41,720 nt of DNA from an uncultured Clostridia bacterium (GTDB lineage Bacteria > Bacillota > Clostridia > Christensenellales > UBA1242). The stretch is taken from NCBI GenBank assembly GCA_947624105.1, contig CANQIX010000007.1:1-41720 (forward strand), read 5' to 3'. A program made the position numbers and the translations under genes. A model generated the notes under the pieces. It saw only the letters and a program-made list of their open reading frames with translations, had not been told where the DNA came from and searched no databases. Positions 3,946 through 35,677 of this stretch are shown in pieces (positions within the stretch are counted from its first letter, which is position 1; every line of letters begins with the position of its first letter).

Positions 3946-3953
3946 TACTTTTA

Positions 3954-3988
3954 TAAAAAATAAAAGGCAAATGCAAGAAACATCTGCC
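3954..3988 (-). terminator. Rho-independent terminator after uvrB
   Basis: On the minus strand, GGCAGATG pairs with CATTTGCC (8 bp, one G-U pair, 7-nt loop) and is followed by TTTTATTTTTT. It separates uvrB from the uvrA promoter. Confidence 0.75.
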
Positions 3989-3995
3989 CATAATA

Positions 3996-5960: not shown

Positions 5961-5976
5961 ATATTTCATTATAGCA
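5961..5976 (-). promoter_or_regulatory. Extended -10 promoter of uvrB, predicting a leaderless mRNA
   Basis: The minus strand reads TGCTATAAT (perfect extended -10), then 7 nt, then the ATG at 5960. A weak TTTAAA lies 17 bp upstream of the -10. The same geometry as at uvrA. Confidence 0.65.
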
Positions 5977-6018
5977 TATCACAAACAATATTTAAAGCAA
6001 CTTTATTAACTTTTCAAA

Positions 6019-6381: not shown

Positions 6382-6420
6382 AAATATATTTTTTGGCAAA
6401 AGCGTATATTTTATTCTATT

Positions 6421-6447
6421 AAAAAAAGAGGGCTAACCCCTCTTTTT
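6421..6447 (-). terminator. Rho-independent terminator of gatCAB
   Basis: AAAAAGAGGG/CCCTCTTTTT stem (10 bp) with a 5-nt loop, followed on the minus strand by a T7 run. The gatB stop codon overlaps the first base pairs. Confidence 0.9.
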
Positions 6448-10992: not shown

Positions 10993-13900
10993 TTATTTAA
11001 GTGCGATAAGGTTTCTTGTCTCACCATACATTCCAGCCTTTGTTACAACATCGTCCCTCGACATAAATTCAGACAAGCCACCACTATATGCTGAATAGTA
11101 CCCATATATGTTCCTTGTCCATGGGGTTCCACCATGTATTGCAACAGTGTAAGGTCCGTTAATTCCTGCAGTCGTAGTTGTGACTGTAGAGTCGGAGTTA
11201 AGAGTAACAGTTACTTCTTTTCCATTAAATTTAATGAAATAACTTAATCGCCCGGCAGATCTTTTGGTTTCTATCTTGTAGTTTGTTGGAATAGTAACTA
11301 CTCCCTCATTAACATTGTATACTTTACCATTGATATTAACTTGATTTTTATTTTTGTCAACTCTGTATTCGACATCTGAATATTTGATATATTTATAGTC
11401 TTGATTTTCAACGATGCCTAATGTTAGAGGTGTATCAACTATTACTCCATCTTGATCAAACTTCACAATAGCCTTTCCATCCTCGTTTATATAAACATTA
11501 TAGTTTTTTCCAACAGATGATATAGTTGAATCTATCTTAACATCTTCTCCACTTTCTAAAGTAATGTAATTATATGCTCCATCATCGGTTAAAACATTAT
11601 ATATAGTATCTGCTATTTCAACTGTTTTCTTTCCATCACTAGTTGTTACATATGATGTAGAATCATAATATTTTACAACTTCTTTGGATTCTCCATCTTC
11701 ATCAACCATGCTACATAAAAATCTTTGTCCGTTAACAACAACATAATCAAATGGTTCTGTCTTAGATTTTATGTCGTATGTTTTATTTTCTCCAGCAATT
11801 TGCACTTTTCTATCGTTGTTTATATAACAACTTTGCTCCTTATTACCAATTAATACTGTAGAACTTATCCTATACTCGGTTGAATCCACACCAGAATTCT
11901 GTATTACTGTGTTATATGATTCTATTCCATCTTTAACTTCGTAATTTGTATCGATTTGAACATAACCATATCCACCTTGTCCACCAACAAAATACTTGTT
12001 CCAAGTATTTTGATAATCTACTAACCAAGCTTCAAAGTGATCTCCATAGCCGACTTGACACGGATTACAGAAATGCCCATTTATTAATGTAGGTAAAGGA
12101 TAAAATAGGTTTCCAGGGAAATCATATTCTGCATGAATTTCGCCATATTGGGTATATCCATAACGAACCATGGAATCTTTTAGTCCAGCAATCGCCTCTG
12201 CCAATCCAACAACACATATTGGTACTATATACCATGCTTTAGGATTAAACCATGCAGTCACCGCAAATATAGCGCCATAGAATCCATAGTAAACAATATC
12301 ATGTGTGTTTTTCATAAAGTCTCTATTAGGAGATCCAAATACTTTGGCTAGTGCGTAAGTTAATGCATCATGGTTTGAACCATAAAGTCCTGTAGAAACC
12401 ACCCTTCCATCGCTACTACCTGAAAGTTTACCATTCATTGAAAGAACAGTATAGTCATTTGAATATGTAAACGTTGGAATCATTTGTAAGTTACCAAACA
12501 ATCTTTCACTATTATTACTCCAATAATACATTGCATAATGTTCATAGCCATCAGAAACACTATTTTTAGCAGCAACAAAATCTTTTCCGTCTTCACCGCT
12601 TGCTTGTGTAATACCTTCAAATAATCCTGATGCACCACCACCAGCAGCTGTCATATACACAGATTTACTACCTACGGAACCTCCGTAGCCATAGTTTTGC
12701 CCTCTATCCAAAACTACATCACTTCCGTTTTCTCCTAAAAGTCCAACATATCCAAGTCCGCCAGTTCCACCAGAACCCGCAAGACGTTTTTGGGTTTCAT
12801 AATTTCTGTTTCTCCTGAAGACATTTTCTCCTGTTGTTGGCATTGAACCATAGTTTCCGCCGGCTCCGCCACCTTCGGCAACACTTGAATAAGTTGCATT
12901 TGCACCATGAGCGCCATTACCACCGCTTCCTGCAACCCCAGAAGCCCCTCCAAGCACAATAGAAGTTTTGCTGTCAACTACCGAAATTGTTCCCGCTTTT
13001 CCAGCAGTTCCACCATTCTTACCATTATTAGAGAAAGTTGACGCATCAACACCATTTGCTCCGTTTGAGCCATCTCCAGAGACAAATATTGACTTGCTGT
13101 CTCCTGAAATTTCCTTAATTGTCTCAGTTACTTCAAGCAAGTTGACTCTTACATCGTTTCCATCTAGTTTATTCTTTGAATAATTTGCCACATTATCAGC
13201 ATTTCTGCCTATCAATGATACATACGAAATAATTCCTGGTAGTCTTATATTTGCTGTATCACTTGAAACAATGCTAAACTTCAAGCTATAGTTTGGATCT
13301 ATGTTTTGAGCACTTCCATACATTCTTATATTCTCAACGCTTGCATCATTATCATCATATTTATTTACTATAAATATCGATCTGTCGTTATTACTTACTT
13401 CTGTAGTTTCATTTAATTGAGCTGCTTCAAGAACAAAGCAAAATCTTGTATTAACAATTTTTCCAGATATTCCATTGCCTACACTATCAACTCTGACCGC
13501 AGGTTTCTTTTCACTCAAACTTGCATATTCAAAGATTATATAGTTATCGCCATATATTTTTGAATCGGCATTAGAAACTGTATTTGTCATAAATATATTA
13601 TCAATTAATATTACATATTTCTGACTTTGTGCCCCCAACTTCTTTTCTTTACTGTTTGACCATGTTGATTCTATATTTTCAGCTTGGATTAAGCTAGATA
13701 CTGAGGCTATTACGGTATAATAATTCCCGCCATATTTAATTCTATCAAGTTTTGATGCGACATCTATTACTAAACTTTCTACTCTATCGCCATTTTGCAG
13801 CGTTCTTACAACATCTAAATTATCAAGGTAATCATTTTCTCCTTCATCCGTTACATTCAATACGCCGTTTACAAAAGAGTTGTGTGTTGAAACATTCTCT

Positions 13901-16900
13901 CCATTGGTAGATTTTGTTTCTGTTAATGAGAAGTATATGTGATTTTCTGTTGATTGTCGGCAATAAAGCTTTAATGGCAGTCCATAAGTATCCCTAATTA
14001 TATTACTTATATCAGAATCGTCTCCACCAGTATTCAAAGTTCCATAGATATAATCATAACGCATATTATCGTTTTCATAAATGACACCGGCATCTTTATC
14101 AGCATATTCGTCTGCATCTGTTGAAATCCCAACTTCATCGTGATAATTAATCACCCCTCTTTCCGTGGCCAAATTTATAATCCCCGACTCATCATACCTT
14201 AAGGTATATTTGTTTGTCAATTCAATTGTTAAATCTGTTATCGTGTAAGCAAAATTTGATATATCAACAAACATATTTGTCATTGAAGCCCTAAAGTCTG
14301 TCGTTGTTCCTATAAGATCGAAACTTTCAATTCCACCAACATTTGAAACAACTAAAGTCTCATTTTTAGATAATTCTATAGAGTCGTTTACTACTTCTTG
14401 TTGTGCTCCTTCAACATCTTTAAACACTTCAAATTCTCCAGCCTTGTATGTAACAAATATGTGATTTCCACTACTGTCTTTATATGTATGCTGAACACAC
14501 TCATTGCCATTTTCATCTCTTCCCAGTGCAGTATACGTATGCTCCACACCTTTTGAGTCTGTATATTTATGAACTCCCGATGCTGAGAATGTATGGCGTT
14601 TCCCACTTACGTCTTCATTAAAAGTTTGGACAACGCTAACTTGATCTGGTCCTTTCTCATATTCACCCTTGTCATTTAAAGTAGCAACAGATTTAGTCAT
14701 CTCTCCTTTAATGTCTATTTTTATTGTTGTCATTTGGTTCCCTTGGGAAATAGTTTGACTGAACTCTCCCATGTTATTTGTAAACGAAGAAACCTGGTAA
14801 GGCTCAGAAGAATCGCCTTTATAATTTTTTGATGTAGGATCAAATTCTTCTTTATAATATTGATAATATTCTGGAGCGAATTTCTCAGCTACACTTCTAG
14901 ATACAGTAATCTCTGCGTTTTCATACATTACATACACAATAGGATTATTAACTGTATTTTCTTTTGTGGTGTATTCTGTAGTTGTCTTTCCTTCAGAATC
15001 TTTGCTTTTTATTATTTCTTCTCTAAACAGCAAAGGCCTATTTAATGTATATTTTACATATGTAAGGTTTTCTATTTCTTTAAATTTATTTGCAACATTG
15101 TCACGATTTTCTCCATTACTATCGCCTTCATTTTCTCTACCAGTTATTTCTATACATATGGTAGGTAGGGTTGCAAAAGCTTCAGAGTAATACTCTTTCC
15201 CTATATCATATCCCTGAGGGTCTACTTTTTGGCAAAAATATTCGTCAATAGCAGGATCTGCTTTACTATTAGTCTTAACATAAACAACATAATTGTTATT
15301 TTCATTGTCTACAAGGTAATAAGATTTTTCTGCTACAGTATTATACACATGGGTTTCAAACTTCATATTACCCGTTACACTATTCATCAAATCGTCTGCT
15401 ATATCACCAACATCCAAATCACCTACATTTGGCGTTTGCATTTCGACTTCCTGAACATCAATTCTATGTGATTGTAGCTCTCCTAACTTGTATGATGTAT
15501 AACTATTCTTAATAGTATTTCCATTCTTAATAACGTATTTTGTAACCTGCAGCTTTAAATTATTATTGTATTGTTTAGTTATTGCAATAATTTTATCAGA
15601 ATCACCAAGAATACCACCCTTTGAGTATAGGCTTCTTACAACCATATCATCCGATTCTTTAAAATTAGATATTTCTTTAAACTCGGTAGTATACTCAGGA
15701 GGATCAGATATTGAAAGTAATGTTGCAAATATAAGATCCTCTCCAAACTCTAAATCAAATACATTCTGTGCATAATATAGTTTATAATCACTTGTTACAT
15801 AAACTTGATGAGTTGCGGATACAGGAGCAGTTTCGTCAACACTAAAGAATGTAGGTGTGTAACTAATATTTCCAAATCCAGAGGAGATAATTGTGTAGCC
15901 CTCCATACCTATTTTTATAGTCATTTTCTCTACTGAATATTTTATTGGTATGTTTCTTAGATATATGCTTGAAGAGAAGGTATATCCATCCCCGCTTGCA
16001 TTTAATTCAGCCTTAGCAACAGGATTTATAGATTCTATGCTACTAACTTCAACATCAACGCTAACATTACCTCTTTGATAGATATTTATTGGTATTCTTG
16101 CCCCTGGAGTTCCTATTTTCAATTCTTCCTGATATCTAATTACTCCACTTGTTTTATATATCCTTATGTTAGAACCAGTGCCTTTATTTTCAAAGTATTC
16201 CGCAAATGCTGGAGGAACAGTTGCTCCTTCATAGGTAAATAAGATCTTATTGCTATCCTCTTGATACTCTACCCTAATTGTATCATTTACGTTTGTTAAA
16301 TTCCATCCGCGTATATATGTTCCATCTGTATTAGCTTCGTTATAACCTTTTTCAAAAGTGCCATCTTTATTAAATGCAAATGTAATAATGTCGCTTATGT
16401 TGTTTGCTCCAATGTTAACTACCAATTTATCAAAATCGCCTACCAATTCTTTGCTAAGCAAACTACCAACATCTAATACGCCTTGCTTCTCTGTATGATC
16501 CATTTTATAACCAGTTACCTCAACAATGCTCTGAGCGTTGATAGGCGTTACCGTAATACTAGTTGTGGATAAATCTGCATTTCCCCTACTAATTTCTAGA
16601 TCCTTACCTTCAGTTACATAATAAGAGTATTTCAATCCAAGAGACTTTTGATCAAGAGTTTTAACAAATTTATTGAAAGCCAACTCATCCATATTTTCAT
16701 TTGAAATTGCCATTCTTCCATAATAATCGCTTAATTCGTTTTCTTCAATGCTTACATTATATCCGGCAGAAGTTCTCGATTCGCTATCATATAGGACATC
16801 TGCATCAAGATATACAATTACATCTTTTATTGCTGGAGAATCAAAGCCGCTTGCAAGACCTGGAAGAGTTGTGAATCCTCCCTCAACTTCAACACCATCT

Positions 16901-22900: not shown

Positions 22901-25900
22901 CTGGTTTCATCATTTCCACCATCATCAATTGGGTGTAAGTAGAGTTTGTTTGCATCTTCAGCCCCTGTAACCACTTTCCTTATATAGATGTTTAAGTTAG
23001 TAAATTCAGAGTTATTTGCCGAACCGCTTACAAGTATCGAGGATTCACTGCCGGTAGCAGTATAACTGCCTGGGTTTGGAACGAAATAGATATTAAGCGA
23101 AGAAATAGAGAACTCGCTTTGACTGAAGATAGGTCTTGCTATCAAAATACCTACATTTTCGTTGAGTCTGCCACCATATTCAACCGTTGCCTGAACAACG
23201 CCTTCTTCTCTATCCTTTGAATATGCCTCATAAGACATAAACTTACCGAAGAAGTTTGAAATTGCAGAAATTGTTTGCAAATTAACGTCTGTGTGAATTG
23301 AGTTTTTGTCATTTACATCTGTTCTTCCACGAACAACAACCGTAATAAATGGGTTGTTTTGAATTGCACGCAACATACCATTTATACTTTCAGTTGTTGC
23401 ATCAAGATAGTAAACACTAAGTTGTGGAACGAGCATAATTTCTGGGAATACCATTGTTTCAAGGTGCTCCCAAACATCTGGATCCCAATCCATCATTAAG
23501 AATTTGTCATACATACCAGAGTATGCATTTGTTCTATCTGTGTAGTTTGGAAGAGTTTGAATATCAAATGTCAATCCCTCTATTTCAAGATTTTTATCTT
23601 GATTGCCACCTTGAATTTCAACTTTTGCCATAAAGGAAGTTCTATTGTCGCCCGTTTCATCGGTTCTGTAAACAGATTTAAGCATATCAACTGCAACGCC
23701 GACACTTGACTTTCCAACGCTCGCGGCCGTGTCAGATATAACTTCCGCTATACGATTCTCTTCTCCTGTGATATAAAGTCTTGGTGTTGAACCAAGTTTG
23801 TTGTTGCGAACAATTCCAACAATTGCCGAAGTGTTGTCCAATGCCGTTTTATCTAATGAAATATCAAAATATGGAACGCTGTTTACAAGATCAAGCACAA
23901 GGCCAGTGCTTTCTTTCATTCCACCAACAACACCTCCAACATAGGAGTTGCCTGTTGCTGTAACGATTGAAGAACTTGTGTATGCTTTATCGTGATATGA
24001 TGCAAGCACACCGCTGTAGTATACCTCGCCTATGTAGTAAGAAACAGAAGGCATTGATTCGATGTATGTTGCATAGTATGAATAATCTTCCGAAGAGTCA
24101 ATTGCGCCAACAATACCACCTATCTGTTTAGTTCTGCTGTTGTAATAGGTATCACCATTAGGGAATATTTCGTTTGAAACAACGTTAAGTTTGCTATAAC
24201 TATCTCTTATGTATCCGCTTCCTGCATAACCAACAAGTCCGCCGATATATAGAGGGTTGTTAAGTCTTACACCTAGGTAAGTTGTGTCGTTTTGTGTATA
24301 TGAGAAGATACTTGTTTGTCCAACGCTTCCGCCTGTTGCCGAAGCGCCACTAATCATATTATCTTCGATTTGAGATTGAATCTCTCTGCCGTATTGTGCA
24401 TACGATGCATAGATACCACCATAACTTTCTCCGACAAGTCCGCCGGCATACAAGTTGATTGCTGTGATGTAAGATTTATCATTGTCATCGGTAGTTCCAA
24501 TTTCAACTCCAACATCATAGATCATCGTGTTTTCGCCGATATATCCAAATGCACCACCTGCAACTTCGGCATAAACTTTAACTGACGAGAGAACTCTTAT
24601 TGTAACGATGTCGTAGTTTACAATTGTATATCCGCTTGAATATTTAACAAATTCGCTATCTCTTTCGTCATATACATCCACATATCCAACAACGCCACCT
24701 GCATAAGACATATTTCCGGCGATTGTTGTGATTGATGCGCGGTCTTTAACTGCCGTTCTTATTCTTGCTGCATTATCTTTTGAGTTCAAATCCTCTTCTG
24801 TTGCATCACGGTTTGTATAATAAGCGGTTTGAACATCGATGTCTGTAATTGTGATATCGCTAAGTTTAGAGTCGCCAATAAGAGCTCCAACAAGTCCACC
24901 AACGATGTTTTGACCTTGAATAGACACTGCCGATTCGATAAGTTCGGAATCGTCTGATTGTGTTTCTAATGGAGAGATTGAAATTGCAACCAAAGTAGAG
25001 TCGATAGCAGAACCAGCGATAAGTCCAACCATATTAGCCGAACTGTTACGAACGCCGGCAACCACAAGATCCAAACTCATAATTGTTCCGCCATCAAGTT
25101 GTGCAAACATACCATAGTTTTCGGTGGCGGTGTTATCACCAAGTTCGATATTTTCGATTGTAAATCCGTTACCATCGATAGTTCCAGAGAACTTCTTTGT
25201 TGTTGTAGTAAGAAGATAGTCATTTTCGCCAACATTTTGTGTCTCTGAAGTCTTCTTAATAAGAATTTCGCTAAAATCAATGTCTTTTACAAATCTATAA
25301 TATCCATATACTTCGTTTTGTGTGTAGAATTGTTTGTAAGAAGAAATCTCATAATTTTCTTTAGATTCTCCCATTGCTTTTGCAAAGTCAACTGCATTTC
25401 TAATGATAATTGGGTTGTTTTCAGAGCCATATCTAAAGTCTGGCATTCTTCCCGTTGTGTAATCTTTAAGTGTTGTTGTGTAAGTGTATACATACGCCTC
25501 ATCACTTGTGTATCTTATCGTTCTGTGCGAGAACGCAACATCGTCAGCACTTGCAAGTGAAACAAAGTCATCATCGATATACCAAATTCCATCAACAAGT
25601 CCATTCTCGCTTACAAAACTAAATCTGTAGAATGTTTCTTGCTCGTTTACATCGGTTATTGCATAAGCGCCAACACGATATCCTGACTGAGCGGTGTTAT
25701 CAACACGTTCTGTGCTGTAATAGTATGAATATTCAATACCACCGGCATCATTATCGTTTAGCACGCTATCTCCCGATACGCTAACTCCAATGAAACTCAT
25801 TTCGTCAATGCTCTTATTTGTCATTTCTACGGCAGAATAGCAGAGGTTGATTTCTCCAGAGTCGCCGTTGTGGTAAACAAATCCGGCAGCCAACGAACTT

Positions 25901-28900
25901 CTGTTTGTTTCTATTTCAAGAGCGATATTTACGTAAGAATTCTTAATTTGGCCGTTGTTATAGTATACAAACCCACCAACATACCCAGAGGCTTGTATCT
26001 TTGTTATATTGCGGTAGAATACTCCGCCAGAAGTTTCTGGTTTTCTACCTGCTGTATATGATGTTTGAATGCTTCCGCTGTTGCTGTTTACAAATCCAGC
26101 AGTTTGAGAAGCGGTTGAATCCATTTCGTTGTAAATTGAAACGTCTGATGCATACGATGCAGCGATTGCGCTGGTGTTATCGTAAACGAATCCAGAAACA
26201 ACGCCCTGTCCACAAATTGTAAAGGTTGGAAGTGCGGTGTCAAATTTATAGTCTTCGTTGTCGATAGTTGCCATTCTTGCAACACTTGCTCCACCAACAC
26301 GGCTGTTTGTGATGTATCCTTCGTTCGTGTTAACAAATCCGGCTACATTAAAGATAGTTAAGTCGGAGTAAGCAGTTGAATCAAGTTTTACTGGAGCAAA
26401 TCCATCACCTGTAACATACTTAACAACTAAACCTACATCTCCCACAATATTGCTTGAGCCTGGAATTTGTGAGTTATAAAATGCAACAACGTGGCTGTTG
26501 TAGATAATACCTTTGTTTGTGTTTGCAAAACCTGCTATCTCTACGCCGGCAGAGTAGGTATTTACATTTGCGGTTATCTGCCCTGCGTTGTAAACGTTTA
26601 CGATAACGTTCTTAATAAGGGTATTTTCTGCTACTTCGCTAAACAGTGCCAAATGCAAACTGTTAGTTTCTGGCATAGCAAAACTATTGATATAAATTAC
26701 ATATCCATTTCCGTCAAGGCTTGCAAACAAGTCTGTTGCTCTTGGTGTGTAATTATTCAAAACGATGTCGTTCATCAAGATGTAGTTTTCTGCTTGTCCT
26801 GCAACTTGTCCTGGACTTTCAACGCCATCGAGGTATCTTAAGAATTGGTCTGCATTGTAGATTGGGAATGGAACTTCCTCATCGGTGTATACTTCAACCA
26901 CAATAGCAAAGTCATAATTATATCTAAACACAACTTCTCCAACGACAACCGTTGTAACAAGTCTTAAATAAACTGCTCCTTGCGATAGACCACTTACCTT
27001 GATTCCATCGCCATCGATTTTTTCAAATTCAACATATTGATTTTCTGTGAATCTGTCTGTAACAGCACTGTGAACCGAACTAAATGAACCATCTCTATTG
27101 ATGTAATATAAGCGGTCTTCCATCTCAATTTCGGTATATGTGCCTGTGTAAATGTCGTAGTTATAGTTGATGTAATATGGATAGCCATCTGCCATATACG
27201 TTCCATTATCTAAGAATTTGTTTCTTTCGTTCATAAGGGCATCAACAACTTCTTGTTCATTTGATGAGTAATTGTATTGTTCTGGGTTAAATTTATATTC
27301 AAATGTCAAATTAGATGCATCTGTGCCAATGTATGTGTAATAAACATCGAAAACGCCCGTTCTGTTGCCGGTGATATCTCCAATTGTGTTGTCTTGGATT
27401 GTATTTCCGGTATCTCTTAATCTTGTTGCATTGCCATCGATTGCAAAGTCAACAAGGAAGATTGATGCGCTTGTTATTATTTGAGGTTCTCTAACTCCGT
27501 TTACAACTCTGCTGATGCTGATGTTTATCTTAAATTCTCCGCATCTAGTGCCATCGGCAAGAGTAGCCCCAAAGCCTGCTGAGAGTCTTGCAGAAATTAT
27601 TGTTGCGCCTATTTCCTCAGTTTCTGATACGATGTCAAATCTTACTCCGTTTACATTTTCAACATTTATATCTTCAAAAGTTTGTCCTTCAAGAAGAGTG
27701 ATTGTTACATCTACCGAGCCGCCCTTAGGAAGAACAGCAGTTGTGCCATCTCCAATCTTGATTGTTGCAGAATTGAAGTAAGTTACTGCATAACTATATT
27801 GAGAAATCTTAACCACTCCACTTTCATCATAGAAGTTGAAAGTTAAAGCAACAGAGCCAACGCCAACAAAGTCAGATGATATATACAATCTAAAGTAATA
27901 TAATCCATTTACTAGATCATTTTGTGATGGAATAACTGTCAAAACTCTTGTTGAAGCATCGTAAGATGTCGTTGCAGAACTTGCATAGTATCCATAAACG
28001 CTGTCAAGCATCACTCTTGAAAGCATTGCAGAACCACCACCTGTTACTTCGGCAGCAACTGTGAAGTGTGTGATGTGAGAATATCGTTTGTCAAGTTCAA
28101 CCGACATAATTGCGTCTGAACCCGGGGTAAGAGTTGTTGCGATTGATTCGTCAGCAGCATAATACCAGATTGCGTTGTGGCGCATTCTCGATGTGATGAG
28201 GTAAGAGTTAACGATAACATCATCGATGCTTTGCTTATCAACCGAAACAACAACTTCAGCCTTGTGCACTGGATTTGATTTTGCTGCTATATTCAATGTG
28301 ATATCATAAACCTTTTCAACTCTGTGCAGATATTCATTGATAACACCAACTGTTACCAAAAATTCATCTATTGTGTTAGTTCTTCCTACCTTTGTCCAGT
28401 TTACATAGATTCCTATATTTTCATCTAAAACAACTGTTCCACTTTGAGTTCCGTTTAAAGTCGATGTGGTCAAAGAGTATGCTCTGTCGTTATAAGTGAT
28501 TGAAATATCAAGATCTTCATCTGCGGCATCTGTGTCAACATAAACGTGGAATTGTGCCCTTTCTGATGGAACAAGTGATACACCACCACTTACGTCGGTG
28601 TAAAGATTGTTTGCCCCATTATATGTCGATATTAAGAAAACTCTGGTAAGTTTTTGCAAAATCAAGTTGTTAAGGTTCTTATATGCAACATCTGCGCCTT
28701 CATTTGTTGCAGCCTTTTTAAGTTCAACAACCTCTGCGGTGATTGTTGCCTCGATATTTGATGGAGTTGCCTCTTTTGCAATTATCGTTGTGGTATTTCC
28801 AATCAAAGAGGTTTCAATATATTGCTTATATGCATCTTTCTTTTCAACTGCAGGCATATTAAACGTTGCGCCAAATACATATTCGTTGCTAATAAGTTTA

Positions 28901-31900
28901 TATTCCGTTCCTGCAAGATATACACTGCCGTTGTCAACCACGAATGTTACTCTTTCTTGGTTGTTGCTTCCAGTCTGGATTCTAAGCACTTGAGTTGTTT
29001 GAAGTTCAAGCCCGCTTTGTGTTACCGCAACAAGGTCAGGCATAGAGTATACAACCATCAAGTTGTAATTTTCTGATTTTGTGAAGTCAATTCTGCTGTA
29101 AATGGTAAGTGTTACAAAGAAGGCATCTCCGCCCTTTCTATAAGTAACCCCACTTGCAGTAATAGAGTTTGTTGTAAAGTCGATGTATGCCATATTGCTT
29201 GATGCAACAAGCACACTTCTAACGTTTTGTATACTTGGGAACAAATCCCTTACAGCAATGCTGTTAAGTGCGCGAAGTTCGGCAGTTTCTCTGTCGTTTA
29301 AGATTGAAGTTGTGTCGTAGTAGAACATAACTGCATTCTTTCCGCTTTCGTCCGTCATAAGTTTGCCGTCAATATCTCTCATCTTTTGCGATGTAACATC
29401 GACATTTTCTGTTTGGCGAACATCTCTTAAATATGAGAAGCCAAAGTTTACAGATTCGTCAAATCCATTATCATTTCTATCCATCCAGTTGCTTGGCATA
29501 TTCGCTGTGTTTGTTTGATATCTTTCTTCGTTTACATTTTGATTCTCTGGCACGCCATTATAGCCATTTCCTGCCGTATAGAACTTAAATACAGGGTTAA
29601 CAGAAGTTCCGCTGGCACTATCTTGACGATCTTCAAGGTATGTGATATACGATTCAGATATCAATGCATCGCCCGTTCCAATAGTTAAGTTATATCTGCC
29701 CATATATCCAAATGAGTTTCTAATAGTTGCGCAAGATGCTACGCCTCTTCCAATGAACACACCAATTTGTCCGCTTGTTTCAACAATTGGAAGTTCGCCC
29801 TCTTCATAATTTTCTAAGCTAAACGCGTAGACATAAGAAGAATCGATAATATCGTTTGCGTCGGTAGAATCTCCAACAAGTCCACCAATATCGCCACCGA
29901 TAAGTTTGTTGCTAATCTTTCCAGTTTTTGTTTGATAGGTATAGAATTCAACACCGCAGCCAATTACACTTCCGTGTTGCGATTCATCACAGTTTTTGCC
30001 GACAAGTCCGCCTGCAACAGCAGATCCAGCATTAACTTGTGCGCCATAGTTGAAGCAACCGCGAACTGTTCCTCTGTTTATACCAACAATTGAGCCAACA
30101 TAGCCGCCTCTACCTATTATTTCGCTGTATGTGTAACGTCCATCTTTATAGCGAACATCAACAATAACATTTTCAACCGTTCCAGAGTTTACTGTGGCAA
30201 CAAAACCATCGCCACCAACTCGCCCAACAAGAGTCAAATCTTTGATAGTTCCGGTCAAGGTGTCAACAAGAGGATTGCACAAATCTTCTGGCTTATTGCT
30301 TTCCTCATTTCCTGCAAAAGTGATTGTTATATCTGGAGTATTTCCAAAAATCATACCCGAGAACTCTACACCATCGTTTTCCCAATCTGTAAGGGTGATG
30401 TCGTTCATAACGCGGTAATAGAGGTATGGTTTTTCAACTGCGTTTTTAAGGTCGTCTTGAGAGTATACTCTAATTGCGGTCGCTTCAGTAGTTCCGTCCG
30501 CGATAACAAGAGGAATCTTCAGTATGATATCTCTGTAGTATACCCTTTCGTTTCTGTTGTTCAAGAAGTAATTTGCAACAGTGTCAGTTCCATTGACAAG
30601 GTCGTTATACCAATCGTTTATTCTGTTTAGTTCAAGGTATTCTGCCTGTTTTGAAATTCCATATTCTTCTGTGCTTGAAAGTGGATAGTAAACAACGCTT
30701 GGAGTTCCGTCGTTTTGTCTTATCATATCTTCTGGAAGAAGGTAAATATATCCATACGCGCCAAGGTCAGTGTTGATTGTTATGCTGATGTTTTGTCCGC
30801 TTGCCTGTCCTCTATCCGAAGTGAGGTCATACATATCTACGATATTGTAAGAAGAATCTTTTGATGAAAGCAGTGATGCAATTGGATACAAACTATAGTT
30901 TCTTGCGGTTGCTGGCTCTACTGCCGCTTGCAAGATGTAAGAATTTTCGTTTGATGTTAGATCAATGTAAATTTCGCCATCTACCGTTTGATTTTTCCAA
31001 ATAACCCTTTCAACTCTGTCTGCCTGCAAAATAGTTAAATCAATGTTAGCAGATTTTACGCTGTTCTTAAATTCGTATCTAACCGAAACGCTCTCTTGCA
31101 CTCTTGAGAGTTGTTGTGTTGACATAGCAACGATTCTAAATGTCATCAGTTTTCCGCTGATTCTTATATTTCTAACTTCGACAAAGTCGTTATAAACTCT
31201 CTCGATGTTTCTAGAATTGCCCTCAGAATCAGTTACAACAAGAGGAACACTTGCATAAGTGTTTGTGTTGCCGTCATATCTAACACCGTTTGTAAGAGAG
31301 ATTGTAAACAAAGATCTGTCGGTGTAAGTTGGGATATTTTCGTCTGTTCTTAGTTGAATTGTTACATCAACATAAGAGAGTGATTCGTCTTGATAACTTA
31401 CACTTTCAAAGGAATACATATTATCTCTTGTGTCAACGTTAGAATCTAAAGATGTTACTGGATAGAAACTTTCAAGTCTAAAGAATCTTATCATTGTAAC
31501 GCTTTCGTGCTTATCGTTGTAACCATCAGCAAGCACTGCAACATAGATTGTATATTCTAAGTTTGAAAGCGACAAAAGGCTCGTTTCGTCGAAGAATCTA
31601 AAGTATGAATTGCTGCCCGCCTTAAACATATCAAGATATCTTGGGCAGAACAATTGATTTTCTACTTTACCTACCATCGAAAGACTTCTAAACCACGCCA
31701 AGTATTTTTGATATTGTTCAGGTTGCAAATCTTCAAAGTTTTGAGGAAGTTCAAGGTCGTCGATATTGATAGCAGCATATTGCCCATATAGAGCCTTCAT
31801 ATCGAGAAACATAAATTGATATCCGTTTGGAATCGAGTCAGTTTTAATAAGAGATGCATTGTTAAAGTTCAAAGCGAGGTTGATGTTTGTTCCTGCTGTC

Positions 31901-34065
31901 AGCATAATTGAATCAAGCGATTCGTTTTGATATTGTGAATCAGTGTAAATTACATACTCTCCTTCACGCCCCTCAATCGTATCTCTGTAACTAGCATCAG
32001 TTTGCTCTTCTGCTCTTTCTGCTGGAACAGCATAGAATGATTGTTCAGAGTGCACTTCGTCATATACGTTTGAAGAACCATTTACAGCGTTCAAAACAGA
32101 AGCCGAAGTCAAAGGAACAAAGGCATAAACGGAGAAGTTCTCCGATTTCATTCCAGTTCTGTGAGTCAGTATAAACTCAACCTTCCCATCAAAGTATGAT
32201 GCCTTTAAGTTTACCACTATCGCAATCAAAACATAGGTGTTTTCAATTCCAGAGCCAAGTTCTTGATTTTCTGCACGAACATCGATGCTTATATCAAAGT
32301 TGTCCTTTGCCCCATAGTTTGGTGCATATTCCCAATCGAGTCCGTTTGCATAAGCCATTCCAAAAACTCTTAAAACGATTTCGCCACTTCTGTTGTGTCC
32401 GTCTTCGTCTGGAGAAGATGAGATGTATAAAGGCTCATACGTGTATGCAAAGTTATCTTCATCTCTAAGCACCATTGTATCTACGCTGTTAACAGCATAG
32501 AGGTTGGCTGTAACTGTCGTTCTAGCAGATGTGTTGCTGCTTGAAACGAAGTTGATCTTAAAGTTAGATTCGGTCGAAACTAACCCACTTCTAAGGTAAA
32601 GGGTTGTTCCGTTTACGATGTTCTCTGTAACGTAGTTGTTTGCCCCTTCATCAGCACGTCTCCAAGTAATTTCGTCAAGAGCGTTACTTCCGGTGAGTGT
32701 AAAGATTCTTACGTAATAGTCAGGGTTGTTGCCCATCCATTTTCCATCGTCGGTAACCGAAATGAAGAATGTGTTGTCTGCCAAAGCCTTTTCTGGTTCC
32801 ATCTTAACTGTTACAGCATAGCCGTATGAGTTTGTGTAACTTGAATAAAGGTCGATTGCCTTGCTGTTATCTAAAACATCGTCAGTTCCAATGTCGTGGC
32901 CAGTTGAGTCATAAACATTCAAACTGTCTGCGATGTAATATGTTGAAACTGCAATCTCTGTCTTTTCGGAAGTTGAAAATTCGTAGTTATATGCAGAATA
33001 TGAGAAGACAAATTCAAGATAGAAGTCCCCATACTTGTTTGTGTATTGTTGTCCAGAGTCGATGCAGTTAAGGGTATAAGAATATGTCCAAAGTCCAGTC
33101 GATGGATCATAGTTTGTGTCGGATTCATAAGAGAAGTAGTCTTCTAATTTTATGTATTCTTTTTCTCCGCCTCTAACCTTGTTATAAATTTTAGGAGTAA
33201 TTCTCTGTGCATCTTGGTTGTATTGTGTGTTTTGTCCAATATTTACAGAGATTTTTCCGGTTACTTGCGATTGATTGTTGTCGTTTCTAACAAGCGAAAT
33301 TTCGGTGCTTGGCTTTAAAACTTCGCCCTCGCCAATAAGGTTTTCACTTCCAAAGTCAAAAGTTTGGAAGTTTGCAGCCTCGATAACTGCAAACGTAAGT
33401 GTTGTGGTTATCTGTGAGTTTTCTGTAAATGTTGCAGAAACTTTAATTATTCCGCAATTTTCATAAACGTATAAAAATCTGTTATCCTTGATTTCAGCAA
33501 CTAAATCGTTTCCGCTGTAAAATTCAGTTTTGTTGTCATTTTCTGCAAAGCCCCACCTAATATCTTTTACGTTTGCGTATGCTTCTGTGAAGGTGAGAAA
33601 TTTGTCAGGATCAAGTTCAACAAATTCGCCGTTAACAGCAAACAAATCTCCACTTGTGATTGTTTGCGATTGTGTTACCCCAGTGATGAAAGTTTTAACG
33701 TAGGCCGTGATAAATTCCTCTTTTGTTGGGTCGTCCTCAGCATAAACTCTAACGCGAGAAGTTCCACTCTTTTCTGCTGCAGCAGTAATTTCAAGGTTAT
33801 ATCTTCCTTGACGGTCGCGAGCAACCTTTGCTGGCACTGTAACAGATTCGCCGGAAGCAACTTCCGCACAAACATTTCCCGTTGAATTTTCAAGCGTAAT
33901 AGAAACAGTAGCCTTCAGATAGTTGTCCGCTGCTTGGTTATTGGTGTAAATTTCAACCTCGTTGTTTGAAACTGAGATCGAAATTTCATCGCCGGTGCAC
34001 GCTGATAAGAACAGCCCGCCCAAAATCATAAATATGCTTAGAAGTCCTACGACAAATTTTCTCAT
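10993..34065 (-). CDS. Giant GLUG-motif surface lipoprotein (7690 residues)
   Basis: One uninterrupted reading frame, about 840 kDa. Residues 1-22 are a lipoprotein signal peptide with lipobox LSAC (Cys23 lipidated), so the protein should be anchored to the outer face of the membrane. Regions in order: about 30-235, Ig-like beta domains; to about 1190, beta-rich; about 1196-1530, 2399-2800, 2882-3460, 3540-4360, 4450-4720 and 4900-5215, beta-helix-like modules with GLUG-type motifs (GGLVGKN, GGIVG, AGFVNTN); about 5300-6990, other beta-rich repeats; about 6996-7160, Gly-rich; about 7256-7296, hydrophobic; then short beta repeats to the end. No LPXTG, peptidase or other enzyme motif seen. GLUG proteins are often adhesins or surface fibres, so adhesion, inter-cell contact or surface-layer function is likely but unproven. 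Strong Shine-Dalgarno (AGGAGG, 4 nt before the ATG). The 5' third is richer in GC than the 3' half. Confidence 0.93.
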   Translation of the reverse strand: MRKFVVGLLSIFMILGGLFLSACTGDEISISVSNNEVEIYTNNQAADNYLKATVSITLENSTGNVCAEVASGESVTVPAKVARDRQGRYNLEITAAAEKSGTSRVRVYAEDDPTKEEFITAYVKTFITGVTQSQTITSGDLFAVNGEFVELDPDKFLTFTEAYANVKDIRWGFAENDNKTEFYSGNDLVAEIKDNRFLYVYENCGIIKVSATFTENSQITTTLTFAVIEAANFQTFDFGSENLIGEGEVLKPSTEISLVRNDNNQSQVTGKISVNIGQNTQYNQDAQRITPKIYNKVRGGEKEYIKLEDYFSYESDTNYDPSTGLWTYSYTLNCIDSGQQYTNKYGDFYLEFVFSYSAYNYEFSTSEKTEIAVSTYYIADSLNVYDSTGHDIGTDDVLDNSKAIDLYSSYTNSYGYAVTVKMEPEKALADNTFFISVTDDGKWMGNNPDYYVRIFTLTGSNALDEITWRRADEGANNYVTENIVNGTTLYLRSGLVSTESNFKINFVSSSNTSARTTVTANLYAVNSVDTMVLRDEDNFAYTYEPLYISSSPDEDGHNRSGEIVLRVFGMAYANGLDWEYAPNYGAKDNFDISIDVRAENQELGSGIENTYVLIAIVVNLKASYFDGKVEFILTHRTGMKSENFSVYAFVPLTSASVLNAVNGSSNVYDEVHSEQSFYAVPAERAEEQTDASYRDTIEGREGEYVIYTDSQYQNESLDSIMLTAGTNINLALNFNNASLIKTDSIPNGYQFMFLDMKALYGQYAAINIDDLELPQNFEDLQPEQYQKYLAWFRSLSMVGKVENQLFCPRYLDMFKAGSNSYFRFFDETSLLSLSNLEYTIYVAVLADGYNDKHESVTMIRFFRLESFYPVTSLDSNVDTRDNMYSFESVSYQDESLSYVDVTIQLRTDENIPTYTDRSLFTISLTNGVRYDGNTNTYASVPLVVTDSEGNSRNIERVYNDFVEVRNIRISGKLMTFRIVAMSTQQLSRVQESVSVRYEFKNSVKSANIDLTILQADRVERVIWKNQTVDGEIYIDLTSNENSYILQAAVEPATARNYSLYPIASLLSSKDSSYNIVDMYDLTSDRGQASGQNISITINTDLGAYGYIYLLPEDMIRQNDGTPSVVYYPLSSTEEYGISKQAEYLELNRINDWYNDLVNGTDTVANYFLNNRNERVYYRDIILKIPLVIADGTTEATAIRVYSQDDLKNAVEKPYLYYRVMNDITLTDWENDGVEFSGMIFGNTPDITITFAGNEESNKPEDLCNPLVDTLTGTIKDLTLVGRVGGDGFVATVNSGTVENVIVDVRYKDGRYTYSEIIGRGGYVGSIVGINRGTVRGCFNYGAQVNAGSAVAGGLVGKNCDESQHGSVIGCGVEFYTYQTKTGKISNKLIGGDIGGLVGDSTDANDIIDSSYVYAFSLENYEEGELPIVETSGQIGVFIGRGVASCATIRNSFGYMGRYNLTIGTGDALISESYITYLEDRQDSASGTSVNPVFKFYTAGNGYNGVPENQNVNEERYQTNTANMPSNWMDRNDNGFDESVNFGFSYLRDVRQTENVDVTSQKMRDIDGKLMTDESGKNAVMFYYDTTSILNDRETAELRALNSIAVRDLFPSIQNVRSVLVASSNMAYIDFTTNSITASGVTYRKGGDAFFVTLTIYSRIDFTKSENYNLMVVYSMPDLVAVTQSGLELQTTQVLRIQTGSNNQERVTFVVDNGSVYLAGTEYKLISNEYVFGATFNMPAVEKKDAYKQYIETSLIGNTTTIIAKEATPSNIEATITAEVVELKKAATNEGADVAYKNLNNLILQKLTRVFLISTYNGANNLYTDVSGGVSLVPSERAQFHVYVDTDAADEDLDISITYNDRAYSLTTSTLNGTQSGTVVLDENIGIYVNWTKVGRTNTIDEFLVTVGVINEYLHRVEKVYDITLNIAAKSNPVHKAEVVVSVDKQSIDDVIVNSYLITSRMRHNAIWYYAADESIATTLTPGSDAIMSVELDKRYSHITHFTVAAEVTGGGSAMLSRVMLDSVYGYYASSATTSYDASTRVLTVIPSQNDLVNGLYYFRLYISSDFVGVGSVALTFNFYDESGVVKISQYSYAVTYFNSATIKIGDGTTAVLPKGGSVDVTITLLEGQTFEDINVENVNGVRFDIVSETEEIGATIISARLSAGFGATLADGTRCGEFKINISISRVVNGVREPQIITSASIFLVDFAIDGNATRLRDTGNTIQDNTIGDITGNRTGVFDVYYTYIGTDASNLTFEYKFNPEQYNYSSNEQEVVDALMNERNKFLDNGTYMADGYPYYINYNYDIYTGTYTEIEMEDRLYYINRDGSFSSVHSAVTDRFTENQYVEFEKIDGDGIKVSGLSQGAVYLRLVTTVVVGEVVFRYNYDFAIVVEVYTDEEVPFPIYNADQFLRYLDGVESPGQVAGQAENYILMNDIVLNNYTPRATDLFASLDGNGYVIYINSFAMPETNSLHLALFSEVAENTLIKNVIVNVYNAGQITANVNTYSAGVEIAGFANTNKGIIYNSHVVAFYNSQIPGSSNIVGDVGLVVKYVTGDGFAPVKLDSTAYSDLTIFNVAGFVNTNEGYITNSRVGGASVARMATIDNEDYKFDTALPTFTICGQGVVSGFVYDNTSAIAASYASDVSIYNEMDSTASQTAGFVNSNSGSIQTSYTAGRKPETSGGVFYRNITKIQASGYVGGFVYYNNGQIKNSYVNIALEIETNRSSLAAGFVYHNGDSGEINLCYSAVEMTNKSIDEMSFIGVSVSGDSVLNDNDAGGIEYSYYYSTERVDNTAQSGYRVGAYAITDVNEQETFYRFSFVSENGLVDGIWYIDDDFVSLASADDVAFSHRTIRYTSDEAYVYTYTTTLKDYTTGRMPDFRYGSENNPIIIRNAVDFAKAMGESKENYEISSYKQFYTQNEVYGYYRFVKDIDFSEILIKKTSETQNVGENDYLLTTTTKKFSGTIDGNGFTIENIELGDNTATENYGMFAQLDGGTIMSLDLVVAGVRNSSANMVGLIAGSAIDSTLVAISISPLETQSDDSELIESAVSIQGQNIVGGLVGALIGDSKLSDITITDIDVQTAYYTNRDATEEDLNSKDNAARIRTAVKDRASITTIAGNMSYAGGVVGYVDVYDERDSEFVKYSSGYTIVNYDIVTIRVLSSVKVYAEVAGGAFGYIGENTMIYDVGVEIGTTDDNDKSYITAINLYAGGLVGESYGGIYASYAQYGREIQSQIEDNMISGASATGGSVGQTSIFSYTQNDTTYLGVRLNNPLYIGGLVGYAGSGYIRDSYSKLNVVSNEIFPNGDTYYNSRTKQIGGIVGAIDSSEDYSYYATYIESMPSVSYYIGEVYYSGVLASYHDKAYTSSSIVTATGNSYVGGVVGGMKESTGLVLDLVNSVPYFDISLDKTALDNTSAIVGIVRNNKLGSTPRLYITGEENRIAEVISDTAASVGKSSVGVAVDMLKSVYRTDETGDNRTSFMAKVEIQGGNQDKNLEIEGLTFDIQTLPNYTDRTNAYSGMYDKFLMMDWDPDVWEHLETMVFPEIMLVPQLSVYYLDATTESINGMLRAIQNNPFITVVVRGRTDVNDKNSIHTDVNLQTISAISNFFGKFMSYEAYSKDREEGVVQATVEYGGRLNENVGILIARPIFSQSEFSISSLNIYFVPNPGSYTATGSESSILVSGSANNSEFTNLNIYIRKVVTGAEDANKLYLHPIDDGGNDETRQGYAGMIAPTALDSSFAGMQYYFDEGMEVIFARGQNITSYASLSFGLNAGRVLLESRYSDVEVGETGITSLASGSDGHPKTITFTVDLEGLTCPTLYFGIVAGYVGYNKNDPDLANVMVNIGSLNKGFDNTKIIIQKGNGVSDASEVIDDLYLGGYFGYTKHFALLTTSIVGGPEIEYVRNLNIYQHINVKNAYIGLIAGAMDSSASGSGSSTFANGNLDLISFTGKIYQPNNITVETAHIGGIAGVNKIAFNATLNFKVDLSVVGSYASESSAYQHDATNTDIYNSIFNNNYMKNWSETPSVGDANESAAIENGVKYSFVYKKQVYAGWIFGENTARITATSENNSKKSILTGDMLFYRTKDEDSTYKDNGTPTAAIGAIGLVSAVATIESSLYVDASMNIFSYVGRTGGNANIGGFIGGFTEKSSIIVSNFLYNGDVVVGADDIYFGGTIGLAQVSSRFSMTNDIYGGNLRVFTEYNDSQKQKLIVGGIAGQIDEPTLGGNTISGCYTYGNVYVYYNHETLLETYYYGGIVGSVITSQAVESTSGGSNRLAVIDCITLMTSFNDMVTETLVSNSKTVNYRVNAIVGNNYEALDYSQNKYSSGVNLANQPALHTLPYNTEEGQEGNYTNEDVNQNKDLPYGTLESGNAFYGYSPSAYALGSSSTNIVDELVSALNGRIEVSVVPKLNPVKLTNVSYNNTTGKGKATIDALGLSDSSSTFTNGSGTDIKWYYIAGDLKLDRFAVEANGDWRNVLNNIVIVGNGRTITYVDDERTGENGYTADDGDQFGLIKNFGGSISSVDGNGYEYTINVLSGLLFNVNIDLDIMDGSGNNKIFGILNTFGGVSNSLGRYSTDILYASGAIGNISIGGTAHVDIGGLIGRMYQGLVSNCYTDLDIIYRAVKQNTESNECGYVSSFIGTNTQPGYYADIINSFAMGRMKAYASVKLNAFTYNMTIGNTGEWRVFDSYTATDVDESINYGEGVAKLVKYRGTESGKGTNYGSTIEKFSLDYRLAENNGIEPYQMSINAKAVSTTHRINDSIECNPSNDSKNTSTSYWFFSPYRNYGYATTGFGYLRNISVYRREKVSTGEDDSSEMAYTEYRYSRLSVEEVEKLFDENKGYTDFYSAIINEELLIGAVELSASTFQSRGGYGSTVDINRNNKFFLTTNLDYTNKCTWTKAYSAIASNTKANPFYLDGCDHIVIIKSSVSMFKEICGDIENFNLINEDTVKTSASVDDSNEFVIYSILAEKMIGNLTNVTVEGKINVENSTNKTQLDGGIVGIMKGNMKSVDSLVNITLSSAYGCYVGGLASVLINGEISYSSNAGNILIRDGKSTTAKAVEDIQLNFPENATQGVPKIIVTEQATSLSLNLNEPSTVITADDGKKFYEVDADVEPPLEMNSVAGGLVGYAKSATNSINNSYNTGSIINNDTSKAKNIKLVTGGLVGYSEIAIRQSFNQGYVTTGYKDNLGTAVSGGIAGYTTGFGTMADVINSGKVEAISYVNKDNYSIKTSLSKKNDSDSLPVITVTIVYNEENSIRTVYAYALGYYDGVDKEEEGPYINGNNENSDVVIDGNVGKYEIVMQYNMKAPHYTDPDGNYVIEELYDYNVGDGEKPLVKISGYDAYGFPNRLNYYYTYTLNYPNWKFIDIQDQGSYIYGGPGWTNGEPSRENGAENIYWSKRNDKNGGSGLLEFHINDYENFVFNRGTDGKGYREKDNGFEEINTNMENMTPGGTTEYYFSLPFFYRAGDENNAFFNTADGAKGQFTQSLTTEALSSLESVKINELFDNCEIAYDEIITALCGYSSNVVSGTYGNKTVKDLYNDIATKKQTSNNNEEVVNINGKSYSLVENEAQLSKYVSDLEFEVSFDVILPNIEGAEISINPKNCVKDLKFTIFYKDGENLIPLKLGDKDQFIEPNGSRMISAENSNENPNIYQFKFKVFYTESELVAAVNKAVPGLDVSTIENFYISVSYTANYNIKSIVEIVKDNVAVVDGVAYILYYKDGVEVEGGFTTLPGLASGFDSPAIKDVIVYLDADVLYDSESRTSAGYNVSIEENELSDYYGRMAISNENMDELAFNKFVKTLDQKSLGLKYSYYVTEGKDLEISRGNADLSTTSITVTPINAQSIVEVTGYKMDHTEKQGVLDVGSLLSKELVGDFDKLVVNIGANNISDIITFAFNKDGTFEKGYNEANTDGTYIRGWNLTNVNDTIRVEYQEDSNKILFTYEGATVPPAFAEYFENKGTGSNIRIYKTSGVIRYQEELKIGTPGARIPINIYQRGNVSVDVEVSSIESINPVAKAELNASGDGYTFSSSIYLRNIPIKYSVEKMTIKIGMEGYTIISSGFGNISYTPTFFSVDETAPVSATHQVYVTSDYKLYYAQNVFDLEFGEDLIFATLLSISDPPEYTTEFKEISNFKESDDMVVRSLYSKGGILGDSDKIIAITKQYNNNLKLQVTKYVIKNGNTIKNSYTSYKLGELQSHRIDVQEVEMQTPNVGDLDVGDIADDLMNSVTGNMKFETHVYNTVAEKSYYLVDNENNNYVVYVKTNSKADPAIDEYFCQKVDPQGYDIGKEYYSEAFATLPTICIEITGRENEGDSNGENRDNVANKFKEIENLTYVKYTLNRPLLFREEIIKSKDSEGKTTTEYTTKENTVNNPIVYVMYENAEITVSRSVAEKFAPEYYQYYKEEFDPTSKNYKGDSSEPYQVSSFTNNMGEFSQTISQGNQMTTIKIDIKGEMTKSVATLNDKGEYEKGPDQVSVVQTFNEDVSGKRHTFSASGVHKYTDSKGVEHTYTALGRDENGNECVQHTYKDSSGNHIFVTYKAGEFEVFKDVEGAQQEVVNDSIELSKNETLVVSNVGGIESFDLIGTTTDFRASMTNMFVDISNFAYTITDLTIELTNKYTLRYDESGIINLATERGVINYHDEVGISTDADEYADKDAGVIYENDNMRYDYIYGTLNTGGDDSDISNIIRDTYGLPLKLYCRQSTENHIYFSLTETKSTNGENVSTHNSFVNGVLNVTDEGENDYLDNLDVVRTLQNGDRVESLVIDVASKLDRIKYGGNYYTVIASVSSLIQAENIESTWSNSKEKKLGAQSQKYVILIDNIFMTNTVSNADSKIYGDNYIIFEYASLSEKKPAVRVDSVGNGISGKIVNTRFCFVLEAAQLNETTEVSNNDRSIFIVNKYDDNDASVENIRMYGSAQNIDPNYSLKFSIVSSDTANIRLPGIISYVSLIGRNADNVANYSKNKLDGNDVRVNLLEVTETIKEISGDSKSIFVSGDGSNGANGVDASTFSNNGKNGGTAGKAGTISVVDSKTSIVLGGASGVAGSGGNGAHGANATYSSVAEGGGAGGNYGSMPTTGENVFRRNRNYETQKRLAGSGGTGGLGYVGLLGENGSDVVLDRGQNYGYGGSVGSKSVYMTAAGGGASGLFEGITQASGEDGKDFVAAKNSVSDGYEHYAMYYWSNNSERLFGNLQMIPTFTYSNDYTVLSMNGKLSGSSDGRVVSTGLYGSNHDALTYALAKVFGSPNRDFMKNTHDIVYYGFYGAIFAVTAWFNPKAWYIVPICVVGLAEAIAGLKDSMVRYGYTQYGEIHAEYDFPGNLFYPLPTLINGHFCNPCQVGYGDHFEAWLVDYQNTWNKYFVGGQGGYGYVQIDTNYEVKDGIESYNTVIQNSGVDSTEYRISSTVLIGNKEQSCYINNDRKVQIAGENKTYDIKSKTEPFDYVVVNGQRFLCSMVDEDGESKEVVKYYDSTSYVTTSDGKKTVEIADTIYNVLTDDGAYNYITLESGEDVKIDSTISSVGKNYNVYINEDGKAIVKFDQDGVIVDTPLTLGIVENQDYKYIKYSDVEYRVDKNKNQVNINGKVYNVNEGVVTIPTNYKIETKRSAGRLSYFIKFNGKEVTVTLNSDSTVTTTTAGINGPYTVAIHGGTPWTRNIYGYYSAYSGGLSEFMSRDDVVTKAGMYGETRNLIALK
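12180..12300 (-). other. Hydrophobic stretch near the C-terminus of the giant lipoprotein
   Basis: Encodes about 40 mostly apolar residues (around YGAIFAVTAWFNPKAWYIVP and ICVVGLAEAIAGL) broken by one NPKAW turn. Could be a membrane hairpin or a buried domain core. It is the only strongly hydrophobic segment I saw after the signal peptide. Confidence 0.5.
12580..13085 (-). repeat. Gly-rich region of the giant lipoprotein
   Basis: Irregular short GGxGG, GxNGxxG and GAGG repeats across about 165 residues, and a later GGQGGYGYVQI. Resembles the glycine-rich domains found in bacterial surface and phage tail proteins; not a regular Gly-X-Y collagen repeat. Confidence 0.65.
18420..30110 (-). repeat. 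GLUG-type repeat region of the giant lipoprotein
   Basis: About 30 motifs counted by eye of the form [AVIY]-G-G-[LIFV]-[VIA]-G-x-N/x followed by G-x-I-x-[ND]-S/C-Y, for example GGLVGYAGSGYIRDSYS, AGFVNTNEGYITNSRV and GGLVGESYGGIYASY. They come in clusters, several preceded by a cap-like segment ending in DGNGF/YxI (for example GTIDGNGFTIENI). This is the Pfam GLUG pattern, predicted to form right-handed beta-helices. Copies are too diverged at DNA level to be recent duplications. Confidence 0.8.
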
Positions 34066-34122
34066 AATGCCTCCTAGATAATATCTGCAAAACGAAGATA
34101 ATTACACGCGCGTTACGCAATA
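34066..34122 (-). promoter_or_regulatory. 5' leader of the giant gene with palindromes
   Basis: About 57 nt from the predicted start to the ATG. Contains GCGTAACGC (perfect inverted repeat), the GC palindrome ACGCGCGT, and AGATATTATCT directly before the AGGAGG Shine-Dalgarno. Possible RNA hairpins or operator; no known family recognised. Confidence 0.4.
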
Positions 34123-34129
34123 TATTTAT

Positions 34130-34158
34130 ATTATAATATCTAGAGCCTCAAATGTCAA
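34130..34158 (-). promoter_or_regulatory. Perfect-consensus sigmaA promoter of the giant gene
   Basis: TTGACA (34153-34158), 17-bp spacer, TATAAT (34130-34135). All twelve bases and the spacing are consensus, the best promoter in the window. Confidence 0.85.
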
Positions 34159-35660: not shown

Positions 35661-35677
35661 ATTTGCCTCCATACGCT

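Follow-up and report, generated by a model that had tools for sequence, protein, structure and literature searches.

We analysed a 41,720-nucleotide stretch of DNA (hereafter the window) from an uncultured Clostridia bacterium of the Christensenellales lineage UBA1242 (GenBank assembly GCA_947624105.1, contig CANQIX010000007.1, positions 1 to 41,720), in which a single gene encodes a giant putative lipoprotein of 7,690 residues. It is confirmed as a conserved, real gene rather than an accident of assembly, and its relatives occur in every genome of the genus that we searched, in one of them by a distal match alone. With a probability of roughly one half, we read its product as a lipid-tethered stalk with a variable recognition tip, which would attach the cell to a partner cell, to mucus or to a glycan. 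Adhesin or fibre is our best inference of its function. Dependent bacteria with giant proteins at the surface are already known; this one is a new variant, of interest for its near-universal presence in a lineage, the order of its modules and its variable tip.

A giant gene conserved throughout the genus

The first-pass annotation of the window had described one uninterrupted frame for a lipoprotein of about 840 kDa, with the lipobox LSAC, a strong Shine-Dalgarno sequence and a perfect promoter, and had argued that a frame of 23 kb could not stay open by chance. All of this held. The open reading frame (ORF) starts with ATG, has its only stop at the end, and encodes a protein whose calculated mass is 846,028 Da and whose N-terminus is MRKFVVGLLSIFMILGGLFLSAC. 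The gene makes up 2.4% of the 958,864-base draft genome. It and its expression signals are located as follows:

10993..34065, minus strand: giant lipoprotein gene, 7690 codons, with 18 full-length homologues that share neighbour genes
33997..34065, minus strand: signal peptide and lipobox LSAC with predicted lipidation at Cys23, from the sequence; Cys23 is the sole invariant cysteine of the 19-sequence alignment
34070..34075, minus strand: Shine-Dalgarno sequence AGGAGG, four bases 5' of the ATG
34130..34158, minus strand: promoter TTGACA-17-TATAAT, matching the consensus at 12 of 12 positions

Shuffling the bases of the ORF 200 times never gave an open run of more than 157 codons, and the remaining two forward frames contain 466 and 797 stops. 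We then have 19 sequences to compare, the window's and those of 18 fully examined relatives. GGAGG precedes the chosen start in 18 of them; in the other (G003), the script picked a start too far inside the frame. All 19 have a sigma-70-like promoter with 0 to 2 mismatches in all, 49 to 86 bases upstream of the chosen start, a count that has no chance control in the relatives. Tandem Repeats Finder found no tandem array in the ORF. Third-codon-position guanine-plus-cytosine (GC) content drops along the window gene from 0.36 to 0.22, and GC at four-fold sites also trends downward in 18 of the 19 sequences (p<0.05 in 7 of the 19).

The 18 relatives encode proteins of 6284 to 7385 amino acids (aa), each in one unbroken frame with no internal stop, and there is thus no need to invoke a private misassembly. 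Using residues 1-3000 as a query, we found matches in 59 of the 60 other genomes of the genus and in none of 40 more distant genomes (those listed belong to other families of the order, beside a further 21). The 60th genome (G030) is matched by the distal profile A7 only (E 5.3e-37, frame of 3607 aa). This profile matches 47 of the 61 genus genomes, the window's own included, and 0 of the 40 others. As a single-sequence query, residues 5001-7690 match only 10 of 100 relatives; the distal part therefore diverges. Two longer frames were listed in the search with residues 1-3000: one of 30,488 aa, which we treated as unreal (a piece of that genome holds a long N run), and a putative one of 26,158 aa.

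At the level of the order, a profile of residues 2390-3330 matched 57 of 396 sampled genomes at E<=1e-10. The window's family accounts for 33 of these, 21 from the genus (own included) and 12 from eight other genera, and in 32 of the 33 a single match covers 893 to 908 of the 909 profile positions. At most 285 positions are aligned in the 24 genomes from outside the family, where those listed are short GLUG-type matches. No genome of the family is among the non-matching order genomes listed, beside which there are 319 others. A profile scan of loci confirmed at least 226, of which 80 were kept and 77 used (L092, L098 and L149 were partial or short). The 80 all come from uncultured Clostridia-like or Firmicutes assemblies, including Christensenella sp. 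UBA1242 (L145; NCBI order Christensenellales), and the animal sites in their titles, where given, are deer caecum, colon or rectum. The profile scan succeeded where a single-sequence scan of named genomes had confirmed no relative. Proteins this long are generally rare, as the first-pass annotation had it, but this rarity does not extend to the genus. A literature search, which had bioRxiv and subscription journals outside its range, listed no report of a giant protein in UBA1242 or Onthoplasma.

Module order and the conserved central block

From its N-terminus outward, the protein can be divided into the following regions, all encoded on the minus strand:

30526..33996, minus strand: residues 24-1180, N-terminal stalk, possibly Ig-like (weak; sub-threshold Invasin_D3/Big_1 matches only)
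29506..30528, minus strand: residues 1180-1520, GLUG-type beta-helix module 1 (Glug in homologues, cap motif, hhalign)
24076..26898, minus strand: residues 2390-3330, the block with the highest conservation, modelled as two right-handed beta-helices
17866..20868, minus strand: residues 4400-5400, GLUG-type region (Glug matches, hhalign)
13735..17865, minus strand: residues 5401-6777, fast-diverging shaft (1 invariant residue in 1377)
12808..13734, minus strand: residues 6778-7086, distal beta-helix (structure model and fold matches; less confident than 2390-3330)
12508..13083, minus strand: glycine-rich period-3 collar, about residues 6995-7186 (glycine periodicity)
10996..12507, minus strand: residues 7187-7690, hypervariable tip (no invariant residue; variable length)
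12181..12372, minus strand: residues 7232-7295, hydrophobic helical hairpin in a tip insert (model, low confidence)

By profile and fold comparison, the giant is predicted to carry several GLUG-type beta-helical stretches, the first from residue 1180. The GLUG label of the first-pass annotation stood for parts of the protein only. Glug (Pfam PF07581, cut-off 20.5 bits) scored above the cut-off near residue 3272 (28.3 bits, piece 3201-3400) and near residue 5024 (23.9 bits, piece 4400-5400), but it reached 13.1 bits, below the cut-off, in the 941-aa piece 2390-3330, and a Pfam scan in two overlapping 4000-aa pieces gave no Glug and only a sub-threshold DUF4298. GLUG detection therefore depends on the piece scanned. 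A GLUG model that we built gave 3 matches of at least 6 bits in the window protein and 97 across the 19 giants, and none in shuffled or reversed controls (19 proteins each). Our beta-helix cap model, equally silent in these controls, placed three modules in the window protein, at 1216, 2427 and 2921; further candidate caps near 4450, 4884 and 6817 were seen by eye only, below model detection.

Module 1, with its cap motif at 1216, aligned with the central block at 97.0% in hhalign, and Glug was found at E<=0.1 in 15 of the 19 homologous segments, the window's own copy being without a match. The corresponding values for region 4400-5400 are 99.2% and 12 of 19. In the N-terminal stalk, 3 of the 19 homologous segments matched Ig_NUP210_15th (best E 4.8e-4). 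Sequence profiles compared with the PDB gave no match up to E 1 for A1, A2 and A4, none convincing for A5, and only Obg (E 3.7) for the distal A7; PHROGs gave no significant match.

Structure prediction of parts, which had been proposed as a check, produced a confident model of the central block (predicted local distance difference test, pLDDT, 85.6) and a poor one of the distal end (51.8). The closest folds to the central model are the beta-helices of M26 IgA1 proteases. The nearest known system is thus the beta-helix region (GLUG / Pfam Peptidase_M26_N) of these Gram-positive metalloproteases and of BACOVA_03286 (3n6z). In contrast to the proteases, the giant is several times longer, has a lipobox and several modules, and lacks a protease domain: we found no HExxH zinc motif in the 19 giants and no protease-domain match. 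Conservation falls steeply along the molecule, with 12.4 invariant residues per 100 in the central block, 0.07 in the shaft and 0 in the tip.

The tail modules recur together. A period-3 glycine pattern is found at p<=0.05 in 24 of the 27 tails compared, and the tips that follow range from 5 to 532 aa. In 13 of the 27, a common final motif, recognised by pattern, follows the variable part. Apart from the window's hairpin, the 19 sequences show two hydrophobic stretches in the tip of G040 and one near the end of G002; inspection by eye adds some in the G217 tip.

Predicted anchoring in the cell envelope

The lipobox is present in all 19 full-length sequences. Among 73 loci whose frames have an upstream stop inside the locus (a set that overlaps in part with the 18 relatives), 68 match the pattern, and in 4 more it is recognisable by eye behind a start other than ATG; the remaining frame, L139, starts late and has none. 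The first-pass annotation favoured lipid anchoring and noted the lack of an LPXTG signal. We found no LPxTG motif in any of the 19 giants, and anchoring by lipid is backed by matches to the Lgt and LspA genes, and by no match to sortase, in the window's own genome. Across 13 genomes of the genus (own plus 12), we identified Lgt in 11, LspA in 13, transpeptidase in 13 and sortase in 1 (G004). The own genome contains one penicillin-binding transpeptidase match, which makes it plausible that the giant spans a cell wall.

Selection and probable exchange along the gene

We computed the ratio of nonsynonymous to synonymous substitution rates (dN/dS) in alignment columns for five close species pairs with our own Nei-Gojobori-type script. 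Only for L081/L097 and L108/L115 does the locus contain the ends of both frames, so the tips are mostly outside the coverage. Whole-length values of 0.17 to 0.39 agree with the earlier statement that the gene is under selection. They range from 0.05 to 0.26 in columns 2001-3000 and from 0.21 to 0.64 beyond column 5000; over the first 3500 columns, four pairs stay at 0.05 to 0.26, and L124/L148 reaches values as high as 0.52. The aligned sequences thus carry a clear signal of purifying selection, strongest in the central block. Protein identity declines in parallel: it is 85-98% in columns 2001-3000 and 37-76% past column 5000. The synonymous rate (dS) is higher distally than mid-protein in four of the five pairs (e.g., from 0.08 to 1.5 in L121/L123), which suggests exchange of distal segments or saturation, beyond relaxed constraint alone.

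We also compared protein distances with those of UvrB (15 genomes, 105 pairs). Spearman correlations were 0.72-0.77 for residues 1-3330, 0.66-0.72 for 3330-6800 and 0.41 for 6800-7180, with RadC, at 0.69, as a comparison value. The giant therefore appears to be inherited mainly vertically, the collar least so. Beyond what the first-pass annotation had noted, these analyses add family-wide conservation, a conserved central block and a hypervariable distal end that is probably exchanged.

A proposed tethered stalk with a variable tip, and its alternatives

We propose that Lgt would lipidate Cys23, so that the N-terminus would be anchored in the cytoplasmic membrane. The protein would run outward through the wall as a rod and could reach beyond it, where the C-terminal tip would recognise a glycan or protein on a bacterial partner, on the host epithelium or in mucus. 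Rapid sequence change and exchange of distal segments would diversify the tip and fit it to shifting targets. UBA1242 is described as genome-reduced, with gaps in glycolysis (several enzymes), in biosynthesis and in the standard transporters for uptake, and is predicted to depend on partners; no giant protein is mentioned in that study (PMC12306168). Such a reduced genome might keep a 23-kb gene because staying attached to a metabolite source would suit a cell with metabolic gaps.

Several observations weigh against this proposal. The partner dependence of UBA1242 is itself a genome-based prediction. The tail of G010 has no glycine collar (1 of 27). The distal-end model is poor overall and had no Foldseek match at E<=0.001, and for these reasons recognition by the tip is something that we infer. 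The contrast between proximal and distal parts is not uniform either: L124/L148 has further high dN/dS values in columns 1501-2000 (0.52) and 4001-4500 (0.76), and its dS peaks in the first 500 columns (0.91), while in L108/L115 dS falls distally. Flanking genes have dS of 0.09 to 0.82 in the three comparable pairs; since flanks vary too, exchange would not be confined to the distal half. Lastly, the drop in correlation with UvrB is clear for the collar only.

The alternative that survives best, though we consider it rather improbable, is a structural coat, in which the protein, in many copies, would surround the cell with a fuzzy layer for protection or spacing, and distal variability would result from immune or phage pressure. 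Length, beta-helix content and lipid anchoring suit a coat as well as an arm, rapid distal change is also consistent with evasion, and one study proposes an Omnitrophota giant ORF as coat-forming (PMC10066038). However, a coat has no obvious need for the strongly conserved block at 2390-3330, nor for a kept order of beta-helix, glycine collar and tip, and Tandem Repeats Finder detected no arrays. It is unlikely that the protein is instead a scaffold active on or capturing polysaccharides, whose beta-helices would bind or cut mucin or dietary glycans in the manner of pectate-lyase-like folds.

Still less probable is a contact-dependent toxin stick, whose C-terminus would be a polymorphic effector delivered to neighbours. 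A variable C-terminus atop a giant surface stalk fits this idea, as do the hydrophobic hairpin of the window tip and the hydrophobic stretches in the tips of two relatives. Yet polymorphic toxins do not typically end, beyond their variable part, in a shared motif such as almost half of the tips have here. Moreover, no toxin family matched up to E 1 in the 19 distal segments, where a single SUKH_6 match (E 0.11) was not significant, although the variable tips may conceal unknown toxin families. Downstream of the giant, 14 of 18 relatives have RadC rather than a variable immunity gene. The assemblies are metagenomic, but similar sizes and shared neighbours in 18 of 18 relatives, frames free of internal stops and purifying selection leave an assembly artefact or decaying gene with a negligible probability.

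Comparison with other giant and tip proteins

The tethered stalk most likely works like the giants of Vampirococcus, Omnitrophota and Apilactobacillus kunkeei, without being, by the tests made, a member of those families. The five A. kunkeei giants (Giant1-5) are likewise extracellular proteins of 3000 to 8000 aa with a signal peptide from a small genome, with a beta-solenoid in Giant1-4; they differ in that their signals are of the Sec/signal peptidase I (Sec/SPI) type, their repeats are long and imperfect (in Giant1-3 helical), their solenoid is N-terminal and they end in DUF5776 domains (PMC12863079). The window giant, in contrast, has a lipobox, GLUG-type stretches from residue 1180, no tandem repeats found and a variable C-terminus, and DUF5776 gave no match up to E 1 in the two overlapping 4000-aa pieces or the 19 distal segments. 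The giant ORFs of Omnitrophota and the Vampirococcus giants are also probably at the surface of small, partner-dependent bacteria, with attachment as a proposed role (PMC10066038, PMC8080830). Those of Velamenicoccia are described as mostly poorly conserved with few annotated domains (PMC10066038), whereas the UBA1242 giant is family-wide with a defined module order.

The distal order of beta-helix, glycine-rich part and hypervariable recognition part also resembles the gp38 tip of T-even phages (PMC12892980). There, gp38 is mounted on a gp37 trimer (PMC12892980), whereas the giant would combine stalk and tip in one polypeptide, and the likeness comes without a structural match: gp38 is not among the fold matches listed for the distal models. 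For a polyglycine-II sandwich of the gp38 type, the glycine periodicity of the tails stands beside a low-confidence collar and tip model and indecisive fold lists. We offer only tentatively, as a rather doubtful analogy, that the giant is a membrane-tethered, one-polypeptide fibre like an outward-facing phage tail fibre. Its base and shaft would be conserved beta-helices, its collar polyglycine and its recognition tip swappable, and it would be family-wide, lock each species to its own partner and be diversified by distal exchange.

Neighbouring genes and other giant frames

All 18 relatives share at least two neighbour genes with the window, and UvrB lies further downstream of the giant in 15 of them. 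The immediate neighbours are:

10237..10971, minus strand: RadC-like gene directly downstream, on the same strand and downstream in 14 of 18 relatives
35079..35672, minus strand: M23 peptidase gene upstream, also upstream in 13 of 18 relatives

At 38726-40645, after mfd, the window encodes a putative lipoprotein of 639 aa without a Pfam match. Its position recalls PrsA-type foldases, and we presume that it could help to fold the giant exported protein.

Other large frames accompany the giant. In G000, contig C5 (L156:7891-18846) encodes a second giant putative lipoprotein of 3652 aa, with a lipobox-like VGC, which adjoins two long genes that by eye resemble rpoB and rpoC; related frames of about 3100 to 3800 aa recur in the genus. 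On contig C19 (L157:5284-15195), a GLUG protein is at least 3304 aa long and still open where the contig ends, and L157/L158 (contigs C19 and C13) carry additional GLUG frames, of 1257 and 963 aa. The small genome would thus carry several large exported proteins. In another genus of the family (L168-L171; G302 and G239), a second giant, whose start resembles a lipobox, comes after the first, the paired frames measuring 7768 and 5642 aa and 7698 and 5647 aa. A putative frame of 8323 aa was found in G250. In other families of the order, short GLUG-type matches lie in long putative frames (7393 aa in G133, 4274 aa in G348 and 4044 aa in G166), which suggests that large GLUG proteins may exist elsewhere in the order.

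Significance for UBA1242

The giant is a concrete candidate for the molecule of partner contact and partner choice in the uncultured UBA1242, which are predicted to live off other cells. It also offers a well-conserved case for studying why reduced genomes retain giant genes.
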